A DNA stretch of 64,000 nucleotides, taken from the NCBI RefSeq assembly GCF_036967205.1, contig NZ_CP146022.1, positions 62,001-126,000 on the forward strand, in the 5' to 3' direction. The stretch is from Streptomyces sp. Q6. Its GTDB lineage: Bacteria; Actinomycetota; Actinomycetes; Streptomycetales; Streptomycetaceae. Of the stretch, positions 59,355 to 63,149 are shown one piece after another. Both the position numbers and the translations under genes were made by a program. Numbering within the stretch: position 1 is the stretch's first letter; the number at the start of each line of letters is the position of its first letter. A model generated the notes under the pieces. That model was not told the DNA's origin and searched no databases. It saw only the letters and a list, made by a program, of their open reading frames with translations.

Positions 59355-60257
59355 TCAAGCCCCGCCGACGACGATCGACAGGGGCTCGTAGGCGACGGCG
59401 GAACTCACGGACAGACCGCCGCAGGTCAACTGTCGCGGCGGAGCCCGGTGGGAGCGCACGTCGACGTCGTACACCGGGGAGCGGAGCGAGCGGCTCGTGA
59501 CACGTACGAACCAGCGGTCGCCGTCGCGCGAGGTCTCCTCGATCGCGTAGTGGTGGCGCCCCGCCGGGCCGTAGCGGCTCAGGAGGGCTGCCACCGCCAC
59601 CTGTTGAGCGGGGAGGAGGTTCGTGAACCCGCGCAGGTGGTCGGCGTGCACTCGGTCGGCGAGGTGCTGCTCCACTGCGGTGACGGCCGACGCGGCGTCG
59701 AGATTGCCGTAGTAGACGCCGTCGGGGGCGACGACGACGTTGGCGGCGAACCTGTCGCCCCCGACATGCGTGCACTCCCACACCAGGTCGGGCCAGCGCT
59801 CGCTCAGGGCACGTCCGACGGGCCGGCCCCGCACGGCGCAGCACACGTCGTGCATGCCGTGGGCGCAGACCAGGACGACGGGCGGGGCCCCCAGGTCGCC
59901 GGGGGTGTCCAGGGCGTCGGCGATATCCGCGAGATCCTCGTCCCGCCGCCAGGTGCCCCAGGTCTGGCGGTGAGCGCCGTCGTTCCCGTAGCGCAGGACC
60001 GCCCAGCGGGGTGGCCCCGCGGGTCCGCGGCGCCCGTGGCGCCGGATGAGCAGGATCCGGGCCCGCACAGCGTGAGCGGCGGCAAACACCCGCTGCTTGG
60101 TGACGGGTTCGAGGGGCAGGCCGTCGAACCCGTTGGGCGGCCAGCCCCCTCGGTACTCGATGAGGACCCACGTCGAGCCGTAGGGGGCCGTGCCCGCAAG
60201 GGAGTCGCCCCGGAGGCGGGCGGCGTCTGCGCAGAAGAACCGGGCCGCCGCGTTCAT
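59355..60257 (-). CDS. Sucrase-ferredoxin-like (Apd1-type) Fe-S protein
   Basis: The 300-residue protein starts AARFFCADAARLRGDSLAGT and has CAHGMHDVCCAVRGRP (Cys131, Cys139, Cys140) and CTHVGGDRFAANVVV (His164, Asp168). It is a thioredoxin-like [2Fe-2S] protein of the Suc_Fer/Apd1 family; in yeast Apd1 the cluster uses two cysteines and two histidines. Here the second histidine position is aspartate. The ATG at 60257 lies 13 bases beyond the JmjC stop, and a GTG three codons earlier would be nearly overlapping. It is the redox partner candidate of the upstream oxygenase. Confidence 0.8.
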   Translation of the reverse strand: MNAAARFFCADAARLRGDSLAGTAPYGSTWVLIEYRGGWPPNGFDGLPLEPVTKQRVFAAAHAVRARILLIRRHGRRGPAGPPRWAVLRYGNDGAHRQTWGTWRRDEDLADIADALDTPGDLGAPPVVLVCAHGMHDVCCAVRGRPVGRALSERWPDLVWECTHVGGDRFAANVVVAPDGVYYGNLDAASAVTAVEQHLADRVHADHLRGFTNLLPAQQVAVAALLSRYGPAGRHHYAIEETSRDGDRWFVRVTSRSLRSPVYDVDVRSHRAPPRQLTCGGLSVSSAVAYEPLSIVVGGA

Positions 60258-60267
60258 CGCGGCCACA

Positions 60268-61473
60268 TCACGGCCCTGCGGGCACCAGGACGCCCGCGCG
60301 CAGGAGCCGCTCGGCCCGTTCCAGGCCGAGGTCTCCGGCCGTGTGGACGTCGCCGTCCAACAGGCATCGCACCGCTGCCAGATCCTGCTCCGGGAAGTCG
60401 AGCCAGCCCACGCGCGTGTGCAGTCGGGCGCCTTCCAGCCGTGCCTCCAGCGCATCCCGCAGTCGCAGCCGGGTGTCAGGGGCCAGGCCGGCGACCGCCT
60501 GGAGCTGGGCCAGCGGCCCCAGCGGCGCGGGGCGGGCCTGGCCGCGCCGCATGCGGTGGAACAGCGGGGCGGGGTCCGTCTCGGCCAGCGCCGCCAGGAG
60601 GCGTTCGCGTACCAGGGCCAGCTCATCGGCCGGTCCTTCGGTGCCCAGGGGCAGGGAGCCGCGCATCCGCGGGTCGTCCCGCAGCGCTGCCAGCGCCGAC
60701 CGGGTGAGCTGCTCGGCCAGGGCGTGGCGGGTCCAGGTGTGGACGCCGAGCGTCAGGTGGATCGAGACGGCGCCCTGCGCCTGGGCGGCGTGCAGCCAGC
60801 CGCGCGGCAGGTACAGGACGTCACCCGGCGCGAGGACGGTGTCGAGATGAGCCTCGCCCCGCGCGGCCTGCTCGACGTCGGAGCGGCGATCGGTCCAGGG
60901 CTGGTCGCGCAGCGGGTCCGGGTGCACCGGCTCGTGGATGATCCAGCGTTTGGTGCCCTCGATCTGCACGACGAACACGTCGTGCACGTCGTAGTGGTGG
61001 TCGAACCCGCGGTTCTGCGGCGGGGTGACGTACGCGTTGGCCTGCACCGGGTGCCCCAGCTCCGTGCCGAGCCGGGTGACGAGGTCCGCCACGGGTTCCC
61101 AGGTGCGGTGCAGCGCCTGGAGGACGAGGGTGGCTCCGTCGGCGAAGCCGCGCCACACGGCGGTGTCGTCGACCTGGTCCGTGATCGAGGCGCCGACGCC
61201 CGCCGACGAGGTGAACGACGCCTCCGGGAGCGTGGCGCCGTCCTTGGCCATCCGGAGGAAGGGGGTGCGCAGCCCGCGCCGGGAGATCAGTTCGTCGACG
61301 GCGCCCGCGGAGAACACGTCACTGAAGTCGTCGGCACCGCGGGTGAGGAGTGGGGCGCGCCCCCAGAAATCCTGGGCGAACTCCTCGCGGTCCCGGTGCG
61401 TCAGACGCGCGTCCAGGACGCCGCCGCCCTGCTGGGCGTCGACGTCCCGGAGTTCGAGGGGCGAGATGCTCAA
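60268..61473 (-). CDS. JmjC/cupin (ribosomal-oxygenase-like) 2-oxoglutarate oxygenase
   Basis: The 401-residue protein matches the cupin_4/JmjC family, with DFWGRAPLLTRGADD near residue 35, the iron facial triad His160-x-Asp162 (DHHYDVHD) and His228 (LPRGWLHAAQ), and LAPGDVLYLPRG. The closest characterised group (E. coli YcfD) hydroxylates arginine in ribosomal protein L16. Here the gene overlaps the repeat-protein gene by four bases, so that protein is the most likely substrate. The C-terminal 140 residues form a helical dimer or winged-helix domain. Confidence 0.85.
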   Translation of the reverse strand: MSISPLELRDVDAQQGGGVLDARLTHRDREEFAQDFWGRAPLLTRGADDFSDVFSAGAVDELISRRGLRTPFLRMAKDGATLPEASFTSSAGVGASITDQVDDTAVWRGFADGATLVLQALHRTWEPVADLVTRLGTELGHPVQANAYVTPPQNRGFDHHYDVHDVFVVQIEGTKRWIIHEPVHPDPLRDQPWTDRRSDVEQAARGEAHLDTVLAPGDVLYLPRGWLHAAQAQGAVSIHLTLGVHTWTRHALAEQLTRSALAALRDDPRMRGSLPLGTEGPADELALVRERLLAALAETDPAPLFHRMRRGQARPAPLGPLAQLQAVAGLAPDTRLRLRDALEARLEGARLHTRVGWLDFPEQDLAAVRCLLDGDVHTAGDLGLERAERLLRAGVLVPAGP

Positions 61474-61871
61474 ACGCCGCTGCCCGACTCGTCGGCCGCG
61501 CCGTCGGCTCCCCCGTCGTGCACGCCCGGGGTTCCTGTGGCGCCACCGTCCGCGGGACCTTCAGCGCCACCGTCGGCACCGCCATCGTGCACACCCGGCG
61601 TCCCGGCCGCACCGCCGTCAGCCGGACCTTCAGCCCCACCGTCAGCACCACCATCGTGCACACCCGGCGTCCCGGCCGCACCGCCGTCAGCCGGACCTTC
61701 AGCCCCACCGTCAGCACCACCATCGTGCACACCCGGCGTCCCGGCCGCACCGCCGTCAGCCGGACCTTCCGCCCCACCGTCAGCACCACCATCGTGCACG
61801 CCCGGCGTCCCGGCGGCACCGCCGTCGGCGGGGCCTTCCTGCTGGTTCGGGTCCTGCTCGGGGTTGGTCAT
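61470..61871 (-). CDS. Pentarepeat Gly/Ala/Asp-rich protein, candidate modified peptide precursor
   Basis: After an 11-residue lead (MTNPEQDPNQQ), this 133-residue protein is five near-identical 23-residue units of the type EGPADGGAAGTPGVHDGGAD plus GGA, ending ADESGSGV. It has no cysteine, no aromatic residue and no signal peptide. Each unit has His, several Asp and two Pro, residues that 2-oxoglutarate oxygenases can hydroxylate. GGAGGAG is seven bases from the ATG, and the stop overlaps the oxygenase ATG. The reading frame continues openly upstream without family features. Confidence 0.7.
   Translation of the reverse strand: MTNPEQDPNQQEGPADGGAAGTPGVHDGGADGGAEGPADGGAAGTPGVHDGGADGGAEGPADGGAAGTPGVHDGGADGGAEGPADGGAAGTPGVHDGGADGGAEGPADGGATGTPGVHDGGADGAADESGSGV
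61494..61838. repeat. 69-bp tandem repeat array, five units
   Basis: Units begin at 61555, 61624, 61693, 61762 and 61831 on a strict 69-bp period (measured at the same motif). The units starting at 61624 and 61693 are identical, so copy number probably changed recently. Confidence 0.9.
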
Positions 61872-62288
61872 GTCTCCTCCTGGGAATGGACGGCCGGGAC
61901 CGGGTGATCTCTCCGTGTACCCCCGTGTCCCCGCTTCCTCACCAAACTCACCCACGCGGATCTCTCCAGCAACTCCAGAGGTCTGTACGGTCCTGGGTCC
62001 GCCTTCGACCCGACGCTCTGGGAACCCTCGGCGTATGCGGTACGGGTTGCCGTGGGGCTCCACGAGCAGTTCGGCCGTGTCCGCGCACACGTCCGCGGCG
62101 CCCGTCTCCTTCGGCGAGGCCCGGCTCACGCCGCCGATTGTCGCGGAAGTCGTGCGCCCTATCGGCCGCACCCGGTCCGGCTACTTGCGGGGCCGTCGGC
62201 TCCGAGCAGCGGCATCCGGATGACCAGCGACAAACACGATCGGCTTTCGGACGACGAGTCCGTGGGCGCCAAGACGACCGTGCCTCTT
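61872..62288. other. Upstream region of the repeat-protein operon (417 bp)
   Basis: An open minus frame continues through this stretch, and short plus frames also exist, but none resembles a known family. The promoter of the repeat-protein operon should lie here; none could be assigned firmly. Confidence 0.4.
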
Positions 62289-62307: not shown

Positions 62308-62685
62308 TTGATCACTAAGCTGGCGGCCGTAATGGCGATGGTGGGGCGTCTGGTGCCGGACGGGTTGTGGGAGTTGTTCCAGCGGGTGGTCCCGGCTGCG
62401 CCGGTGCGTCCGCAGGGTGGTGGCCGACGTCGGTATGGTCATCGAGAAGTGCTGGCGGCGATCGTGTTCGTGGCCACGACTGGGTGTACCTGGCGGCAGC
62501 TGCCGCCAGGCTTCGGCCCGTCCGGGCCAACCGCACACCGTCGTTTCACTGAGTGGAGCCGGGCTCGGGTATGGGGCAAGCTCTACCGCCTGGTGCTGGA
62601 CGAACTCGGCGCACGTGGAGCGTTGGACTGGTCCCGGTGCGCGATCGACTCGGTGAACATGCGGGCAACGAGAGGGGGGACCTGA
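62308..62685 (+). CDS. IS5-type transposase, OrfA part
   Basis: The 125-residue frame (TTG start; ATG at 62332 possible) has the N-terminal transposase domain WELFQRVVPAAPVRPQGGGR, GCTWRQLPPGFGPSGPTAHR and the first catalytic Asp in RCAIDSVNMRA. It ends just after a G6 run in AGAGGGGGGACC. A -1 slip there joins it smoothly to OrfB, giving RGGDLTGPNPVDRG. Confidence 0.75.
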   Translation: MITKLAAVMAMVGRLVPDGLWELFQRVVPAAPVRPQGGGRRRYGHREVLAAIVFVATTGCTWRQLPPGFGPSGPTAHRRFTEWSRARVWGKLYRLVLDELGARGALDWSRCAIDSVNMRATRGGT

Positions 62686-63149
62686 CGGGTCCGAATCCCG
62701 TAGATCGCGGCAAGAAGGGGTCAAAGATCCACTTGATCACCGAGCGATCCGATCTGGCCCTCTCAATCGGGATCTCCACCGCAAACACCCACGACAGCCA
62801 GGGACTTGAGCCCCTCGTGCGCGGCATCACGCCCGTTCGCTCACGCCGTGGACCGCGGCGGCGAAAGCCTGCCAAGCTCCATGGCGACAAGGGGTATGAC
62901 TACGACCACCTGCGCTGGTGGCTGCGCTCGCGGAACATCACCCCGCGCATCGCGCGCAAGGGCGTCGAGTCCTCACAGCGCCTGGGCCGTCATCGCTGGA
63001 CCGTGGAGCGGACGGTCGCTTGGCTTGCCGGATGCCGCCGCGTGCACCGTCGGTACGAACGCAAGGCCGGACACTTCCTCGCCTTCACCGGCATCGCCGC
63101 CGCTCTGATCTGCTACCGCAGACTTGCGAAGGTCCTCAACTCGATGTGA
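62553..63149 (+). CDS. IS5-type transposase, OrfB part
   Basis: The frame supplies the rest of the DDE transposase from about 62680: GKKGSKIHLITERSDLALSI, LHGDKGYDYDHLRWWLRSRN with the second Asp, and GRHRWTVERTVAWLAGCRRV with the Glu. The first ~40 codons overlap OrfA out of frame and need not be translated. Production likely needs the -1 frameshift at the G run near 62674. Confidence 0.75.
   Translation: MEPGSGMGQALPPGAGRTRRTWSVGLVPVRDRLGEHAGNERGDLTGPNPVDRGKKGSKIHLITERSDLALSIGISTANTHDSQGLEPLVRGITPVRSRRGPRRRKPAKLHGDKGYDYDHLRWWLRSRNITPRIARKGVESSQRLGRHRWTVERTVAWLAGCRRVHRRYERKAGHFLAFTGIAAALICYRRLAKVLNSM

Follow-up and report, generated by a model that had tools for sequence, protein, structure and literature searches.

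We analyzed a stretch of 64,000 nucleotides from Streptomyces sp. Q6 (contig NZ_CP146022.1, positions 62,001 to 126,000), referred to below as the window. Three open reading frames (ORFs), all on the minus strand, encode a repeat peptide, then a JmjC oxygenase, then a Suc_Fer/Apd1-like iron-sulfur (Fe-S) protein (Table 1). They lie where a first-pass annotation of this DNA had put them: the stop codon TGA of the peptide gene overlaps the start codon TTG of the oxygenase gene in the four bases TTGA, and a gap of 10 bases separates the stop of the oxygenase gene from the start of the Suc_Fer gene. The same annotation had taken the three genes as one unit, and they are indeed one real cassette; the set recurs across Actinomycetota and is widespread in this phylum. 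It had also described five 23-residue units free of Cys and aromatic residues, two of them identical in DNA. This was borne out by the translation and by tandem-repeat analysis (period 69 bp, 4.9 copies, 91% matches), and a difference matrix recovered the identical pair. The peptide contains no Lys or Arg either and is net acidic, with 17 Asp and 7 Glu residues.

The peptide ORF is a genuine gene under coding selection. It is not a chance reading frame, because a Shine-Dalgarno sequence AGGAGGA precedes its start, its frame is kept across genera, and the proportion of nonsynonymous differences (pN) is far below that of synonymous differences (pS). The 23-residue units, which were chosen by an amino-acid pattern that favours apparent conservation in the peptide frame, show between loci a pS of 0.60 and a pN of 0.066 in this frame (168 units, 55 loci), and pN exceeds pS in the other two frames. 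If the seven columns that the pattern fixes are disregarded, pN/pS still amounts to 0.17 (162 units from 53 loci, after removal of two duplicate genomes). Among the column groups compared in these 162 units, the GGA that follows the second Asp has the lowest pN/pS, 0.011, and columns 9, 11 and 14 are the loosest, with 0.64. No Pfam or NCBIfam family matched the window peptide at E ≤ 1, and the profile matches of seven other cassette peptides were all far under the curated cut-offs. Loci were compared as near, mid and far groups. Leaders like MTxPEQDPNQQ are found in many near loci, with related leaders in Streptomyces, Arthrobacter, Kocuria and Rhodococcus, and in most mid and far leaders an acidic (D/E)(D/E)D(I/M)xT-like segment takes their place.

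Upstream of the peptide gene, Arthrobacter- and Kocuria-type loci (e.g. L059-L077, at -56 to -125) have the stretches GTGATCACG, CGGGCGGTG and GCTGTTCCC in common. In these loci, 9-mers are shared by up to 11 of 45 upstream regions, versus a shuffle maximum of 5. The shared stretches may contain a promoter or operator, or they probably reflect plain relatedness.

Table 1. Features of the cassette, with positions counted in the window
Feature	Position	Strand	Basis and remarks
Repeat precursor peptide gene	61470..61871	-	133 aa; five 23-aa units (EGPADGGAAGTPGVHDGGADGGA); homologous ORFs adjoin the JmjC gene at other loci
Shine-Dalgarno sequence AGGAGGA of the peptide gene	61875..61881	-	sequence reading; same or similar site in many relatives
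Probable leader, residues 1-11 (MTNPEQDPNQQ)	61839..61871	-	leader list; putative leader role
Repeat array, five 69-bp units	61494..61838	-	units 2 and 3 identical
JmjC_2 (PF08007) Fe(II)/2-oxoglutarate-type oxygenase	60268..61473	-	401 aa; Pfam 9e-29; TTG start
C-terminal segment of the oxygenase resembling a RiPP recognition element, residues 335-398	60280..60471	-	secondary structure of the AlphaFold2 model; likeness suggested by strand/helix order, cf. PMC12710340
Suc_Fer-like (PF06999, Apd1-like) protein, thioredoxin-like [2Fe-2S] ferredoxin-type domain	59355..60257	-	300 aa; Pfam 2.3e-16
Putative cluster-binding segment C131-x-H133-x2-H136-D137-x-C139-C140 ... H164-x-G-G-D168	59754..59867	-	stand-alone relatives: RD and HxGGH

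Recurrence of the cassette in Actinomycetota

Some JmjC match at E ≤ 0.001 was present in 74 of 150 Streptomyces genomes, and orthologs at 69-81% identity in only 14 of them. All 14 orthologs have a repeat ORF upstream (that of L038 was read by eye) and 13 have the Suc_Fer gene; the contig of the 14th ends too early. The four-base overlap between the peptide and JmjC genes is present in 10 of the 14 rows scored. A contig scan added 46 loci from 11 genera, namely Streptomyces, Arthrobacter, Pseudarthrobacter, Paenarthrobacter, Kocuria, Nakamurella, Rhodococcus, Flexivirga, Leucobacter, Ornithinicoccus and Mycobacterium. The repeat ORF stands before the JmjC gene in all 45 testable loci of this set (L086, with 49 bases upstream, was untestable, and L068 is cut with its array visible), and the Suc_Fer gene in 45 of 46, the exception being L094 near a contig end. 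At least two pairs of loci are from the same genomes (L053/L032 and L082/L041).

In the phylum-wide search the oxygenase profile at 1e-20 matched 58 of 396 sampled Actinomycetota genomes, the window genome included. Thirty places of this set were given as loci and the 28 new ones were examined; from the weaker profile matches, G260 and G265 (L160-L162) and some Suc_Fer loci were examined. A repeat or Asp-array ORF was found at 26 of 27 testable distant loci (L125 is cut). The first-pass annotation had named the absence of the repeat ORF from relatives as an argument against its idea; the ORF proved to be conserved beside the oxygenase in all three sets, L109 being the one testable exception. 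Every locus was reached by way of the oxygenase or Suc_Fer, so peptides lacking both would be missed. An automatic precursor census covered 83 of 89 loci, with L086 and L125 at contig edges and L044, L068, L116 and L121 recovered separately; a stricter census covered 66 of 89, one pick (L093) being a wrong ORF. A neighbour comparison of 751 called genes at 61 loci recorded JmjC at 55, Suc_Fer at 49 and the peptide at 10, the last figure being an undercount because the peptide is often below the size limit of the gene caller. No other family occurred at more than 9 of the 61 loci, and those found were mostly neighbours common to related loci.

Fifteen JmjC paralogs from Streptomyces (33-39% identity) served as a control. 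Within their 1.5-kb flanks none has a Suc_Fer gene, and only two (L018 and L019) are preceded by a short ORF whose end is rich in Asp. The oxygenase might instead modify a ribosomal or other cellular protein, the peptide being an unrelated low-complexity ORF, as PF08007 includes the ribosomal oxygenases YcfD, NO66 and MINA53. We hold this to be highly improbable, given the control and the persistence of the peptide-oxygenase linkage across classes of the phylum; gene linkage points away from a ribosomal-protein substrate.

The two exceptional ORFs among the paralogs (G038 and G082) have LDPxDI/LHPDEI leader-like starts and the Asp-rich ends DDNDSDDSGG and DNDPTDPV, and the adjoining JmjC proteins are 38% and 35% identical to the window oxygenase. 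The oxygenase branch may serve other small peptides, and there may be further JmjC-linked peptide families. Close orthologs were not found on plasmids: none of 118 matching plasmid records covers 80% of the query, and all are below 60% identity. Just upstream of the cassette in the window, two overlapping ORFs on the plus strand (62308-63149) look like a frameshifted transposase of the IS5 type.

The oxygenase and the iron-sulfur partner

The His160/Asp162/His228 triad, reported as intact by the first-pass annotation, is complete in the window oxygenase and present in 61 of 61 near proteins. All 33 aligned rows and all 28 mid and far proteins have H160, D162, K175 and H228; a regular expression for the JmjC protein failed at 10 of 89 loci, but the alignment shows the metal-site residues in each of the 28 mid and far proteins. 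K175 lies where related enzymes have their 2-oxoglutarate lysine. The fold, the HxD...H triad and the 2-oxoglutarate lysine position of the ribosomal-oxygenase branch of PF08007 are all found in the protein. Profile and fold searches gave NO66 as the closest solved structure, followed by MINA53 and YcfD.

In the AlphaFold2 model of the oxygenase (mean predicted local distance difference test score, pLDDT, 82; predicted template modelling score 0.70), residues 335-398 form four short strands and three helices, in an order near that of the recognition element (RRE) of ribosomally synthesized and post-translationally modified peptides (RiPPs). This beta3-alpha3 order is seen in the C terminus of the model, and no profile matched the region. 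RRE-like folds fused to PF08007 JmjC domains are described from fish and algae, with the closest bacterial homologs in RiPP-like contexts (PMC12710340).

The third protein matches Suc_Fer (PF06999) above the curated cut-off. Its model has a pLDDT of 88, and the best Foldseek match is the thioredoxin-like [2Fe-2S] ferredoxin of Aquifex aeolicus (1f37; probability 1.00, E 0.014, about 96 columns), with nothing at E ≤ 0.001. As in Apd1, the His/Asp/Cys segment would provide the cluster ligands. Apd1-type proteins are called 'bishistidinyl' in the title of a 2019 study by Stegmaier, and their two His ligands lie in the motif H-x3-H.

This motif was not found in the cassette proteins, which have H-x3-D in 88 of 89 cases and H-x3-C in one. 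A first sample of 83 cassette proteins, in which two genomes are counted twice, has the H-x-G-G-D loop in all 83 (L113 by eye) and His136 in 79. A second sample covered 30 of 34 Suc_Fer places, 18 of which adjoin an oxygenase and have Asp in 17 and Cys in one (G265); 12 of these 18 genomes were already in the first sample. The union of both samples has Asp at the second His ligand position in 88 of 89 cassette proteins and Cys in the other, and His136 in 84 of 89, with Arg at the latter place in the nine stand-alone relatives read. Twelve stand-alone Suc_Fer proteins have His at the second ligand position in ten and Asp in one (L156, G260), L131 being unread; three of the twelve fell outside the motif pattern and were inspected (L130 with His, L156 with Asp, and L131). 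The window genome itself has a second, stand-alone Suc_Fer with H-x-G-G-H. As judged from these motifs, the Fe-S proteins of the cassette are a distinct subtype in which the putative second His ligand position has changed to Asp. A tree of 91 Suc_Fer proteins has two changes of the stand-alone label and leaves a single origin of the cassette type undecided.

In G260, a Suc_Fer of the cassette type (HxGGD) lies about 23 kb from the JmjC gene, which makes a split cassette. In G265 (L138/L162), an HxGGC Suc_Fer has an Asp-array ORF and a JmjC gene as neighbours.

Repeat residues and the proposed hydroxylation

The first-pass annotation had asked whether the repeat number varies while the His, Asp and Pro positions stay fixed. 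The number varies widely, as it had anticipated: the shortest array of EGPAD-type units, in L045 (41 aa), has a single unit, the longest, in L060 (206 aa) and L040 (185 aa), have seven or eight, and there are none where the array belongs to another type. Arrays of DGGA and DSGA replace the 23-residue units in some Arthrobacter-type loci, and those of the far group are DGDASDASDGDASDAT, DADGTDGDATD or TDADADSTDADADS; distant relatives have arrays of the DGDASD or TDADADS kind. Yet another kind of repeat, two 21-residue units of PTEDDENLDAPGEHSQDTGDE, accompanies the JmjC gene in G260 (L160, L161).

The residues themselves were compared in 86 peptides (60 near, 10 mid and 16 far, with L109 left out). 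The expectation of fixed positions stands for Asp in so far as it stays abundant in all 86 peptides, but His and Pro are not fixed. The last 40 residues contain at least 5 Asp in the near and mid groups and at least 11 in the far group. They contain Pro in 45 of 60 near, 10 of 10 mid and 3 of 16 far peptides, and His in 43 of 60, 10 of 10 and 3 of 16, respectively. After residue 12, the minimum fractions in the far group are 0.26 for Asp, 0.08 for Ala, 0.02 for Gly and 0.01 for Pro. Pro is kept in 42 of 48 distinct types of unit; the Asp columns are invariant in these types by the search pattern and so give no independent evidence. Because His and Pro are often missing while Asp is never scarce, Asp is the common thread of the peptides. 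One of the 16 far peptides has no Gly and one no Ala in its last 40 residues, which disfavours either as the common site; Ser/Thr, absent from this region of some peptides, was rejected as well.

The explanation we favour, at a probability of about 0.5, is a RiPP-like cassette in which the JmjC oxygenase hydroxylates the repeat aspartates of the linked peptide with the help of the Fe-S partner. As in RiPP clusters, a short precursor gene adjoins the gene of a putative modifying enzyme, and this enzyme would act on the peptide. The first gene would provide an acidic precursor made of a short leader and tandem Asp-containing units. The oxygenase, using Fe(II) and 2-oxoglutarate, would grip the precursor through its RRE-like C-terminal domain and hydroxylate the aspartates successively, guided by the leader, with the beta carbon as the most likely position. 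The third gene would encode an Apd1-like [2Fe-2S] protein of the cassette-specific subtype, most likely an electron donor, whose electrons would either reduce the iron of the oxygenase back to Fe(II) after each turnover or feed a subsequent redox reaction. The cassette would yield a polyanionic peptide of hydroxyaspartate that probably binds metals; an acidic array of hydroxy-Asp is suited to binding metals. A bolder form of this proposal, which we regard as doubtful, is that the cassette makes ribosomal poly-hydroxyaspartate, an expandable array of beta-hydroxy-Asp that is a dedicated ligand of iron or another metal and is loaded or unloaded by the His/Asp-ligated [2Fe-2S] partner. If true, poly-hydroxyaspartate would be a polymer of ribosomal origin that handles iron, and the iron-sulfur ligation would be of a new type.

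Several observations weigh against hydroxylation of aspartate in a RiPP-like cassette. Gly and Ala are abundant in every near and mid peptide, and after residue 12 every peptide retains some Pro, Gly and Ala. The N-terminal segments before the repeats are conserved, yet they are of two leader types, one in the near and one in the distant groups. One locus, L109 in G285, has no repeat peptide and an acidic, non-repeated ORF upstream instead; its JmjC protein is 48% identical to the best family query, and Suc_Fer is not adjacent, one being encoded elsewhere in the genome. The Suc_Fer gene is downstream at 24 of the 28 distant loci and missing at L109, L111, L112 and L124, and no Suc_Fer relative was found anywhere in three of these four genomes (E 1e-5; one genome 81% complete). 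The Fe-S partner supposed by the first-pass annotation is thus usual in the cassette but not obligate. Further, no conserved protease or transporter/exporter was found near the 61 loci compared, which is unusual for a RiPP. The closest solved relatives of the oxygenase, NO66 and MINA53, are histidyl hydroxylases, and the His of the repeat is kept in 40 of the 48 unit types, with a pN/pS of 0.072 for its column.

The last two points, together with the presence of His in all ten mid-group peptides counted, would fit an oxygenase that is a histidyl hydroxylase like NO66 and MINA53 and acts on the His of each PGVHDGG unit. This is quite unlikely in our view, since Gln, Arg, Ser or Glu takes the place of His in the other 8 of the 48 unit types and since His is missing after residue 12 from 4 of 60 near and 13 of 16 far peptides. 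Moreover, the peptides of L076, L078 and L091 are free of His beside JmjC proteins 74-75% identical to that of the window, and His as an obligate site for the whole family was ruled out on these grounds.

The lack of a conserved peptidase or exporter would be expected of an internal store. The unmodified Asp-repeat peptide might be such a metal buffer or store, with the Fe-S protein as its reductase and the oxygenase hitting another target or sensing iron, oxygen or 2-oxoglutarate. Acidic Asp arrays bind cations, and a thioredoxin-like [2Fe-2S] protein could reduce the bound iron. We nevertheless consider a store unlikely, because the coupled starts suit an enzyme and its substrate and because the oxygenase, through which the loci were found, accompanies the peptide more steadily than does the Fe-S protein, which was not found in three genomes (one 81% complete) that have the other two genes.

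Oxidation of Asp might also proceed past hydroxylation, to dehydro-Asp, aminomalonate, cleavage of the Asp-Gly backbone or cross-linking, with the Fe-S protein in the second step. A precedent exists in SmaX, which converts beta-hydroxy-Asp to aminomalonic acid in another RiPP (PMC13097080). The Fe-S subtype is tied to the cassette, as though it served a separate purpose. The odds of such further oxidation are nonetheless slim, as the cassette encodes no second oxidase and as the [2Fe-2S] proteins of thioredoxin-like fold are, to our knowledge, electron carriers.

Relation to known systems

If aspartate is hydroxylated as we favour, the cassette has likenesses in several known systems. NO66, MINA53 and YcfD belong to PF08007 and have the same fold and metal triad, and a C-terminal winged-helix-type domain is presumably common to them and the cassette oxygenase; they differ in hydroxylating His or Arg of ribosomal proteins, whereas the partner in the cassette is an Asp-repeat peptide. 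Apd1/Aim32 and the Aquifex thioredoxin-like ferredoxin have in common with the Fe-S protein PF06999 and a thioredoxin-like [2Fe-2S] domain, and we take a Cys pair and an H-x3-ligand loop to be shared with Apd1. The difference from Apd1/Aim32 is the residue at the second His position, Asp with the single exception of Cys.

Hydroxylation of peptide side chains by related enzymes is known from RiPPs. BipG, a JmjC protein, hydroxylates ornithine in the biphenomycin pathway (PMC12707348), and the same is true of the cupin-like PbsQ from a related pathway (PMC12257519). Both resemble the cassette in that a JmjC or cupin oxygenase from a peptide cluster would add a hydroxyl group to a side chain of a ribosomally made peptide. 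However, ornithine in a short core is modified there, and the clusters include a multinuclear non-heme iron-dependent oxidative enzyme (MNIO), an arginase, a B12-dependent radical S-adenosylmethionine enzyme and a protease; the accessible parts of these sources mention neither tandem Asp repeats nor a comparable Fe-S partner for biphenomycin pathways. SmaO, as told in PMC13097080, beta-hydroxylates Asp of a graspetide precursor. The SmaO/SmaX pair is alike in Asp beta-hydroxylation of a RiPP precursor and differs in the graspetide synthetase context and the N-terminal modification of the peptide (PMC13097080). In the graspetide corallotide, five tandem repeat motifs are each acted on by a 2-oxoglutarate oxygenase; the reaction is, however, delta-hydroxylation of Lys after macrocyclisation, the enzyme belongs to PF13640, and the system is confined to Corallococcus (PMC13097080).

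No literature on the three-gene set was found among the matches listed, as judged by titles and abstract openings and with subscription journals mostly outside the coverage. Under the Suc_Fer family names nothing on bacteria was found, judged by title. The cassette is apparently undescribed. RiPP pathways with JmjC hydroxylases and RiPPs with beta-hydroxylated Asp are already on record; the precursor type is apparently new, and the Fe-S partner belongs to a distinct subtype.

The cassette is compact, widespread and testable, and it occurs in culturable actinobacteria. If the favoured explanation is true, it would offer a simple genetic means of making arrays of hydroxylated aspartate and would extend JmjC oxygenases to repetitive acidic peptides. 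It would also give the bacterial Suc_Fer-like proteins a context, and the His-to-Asp exchange linked to the cassette is a handle on a possible new ligand set of [2Fe-2S] clusters.

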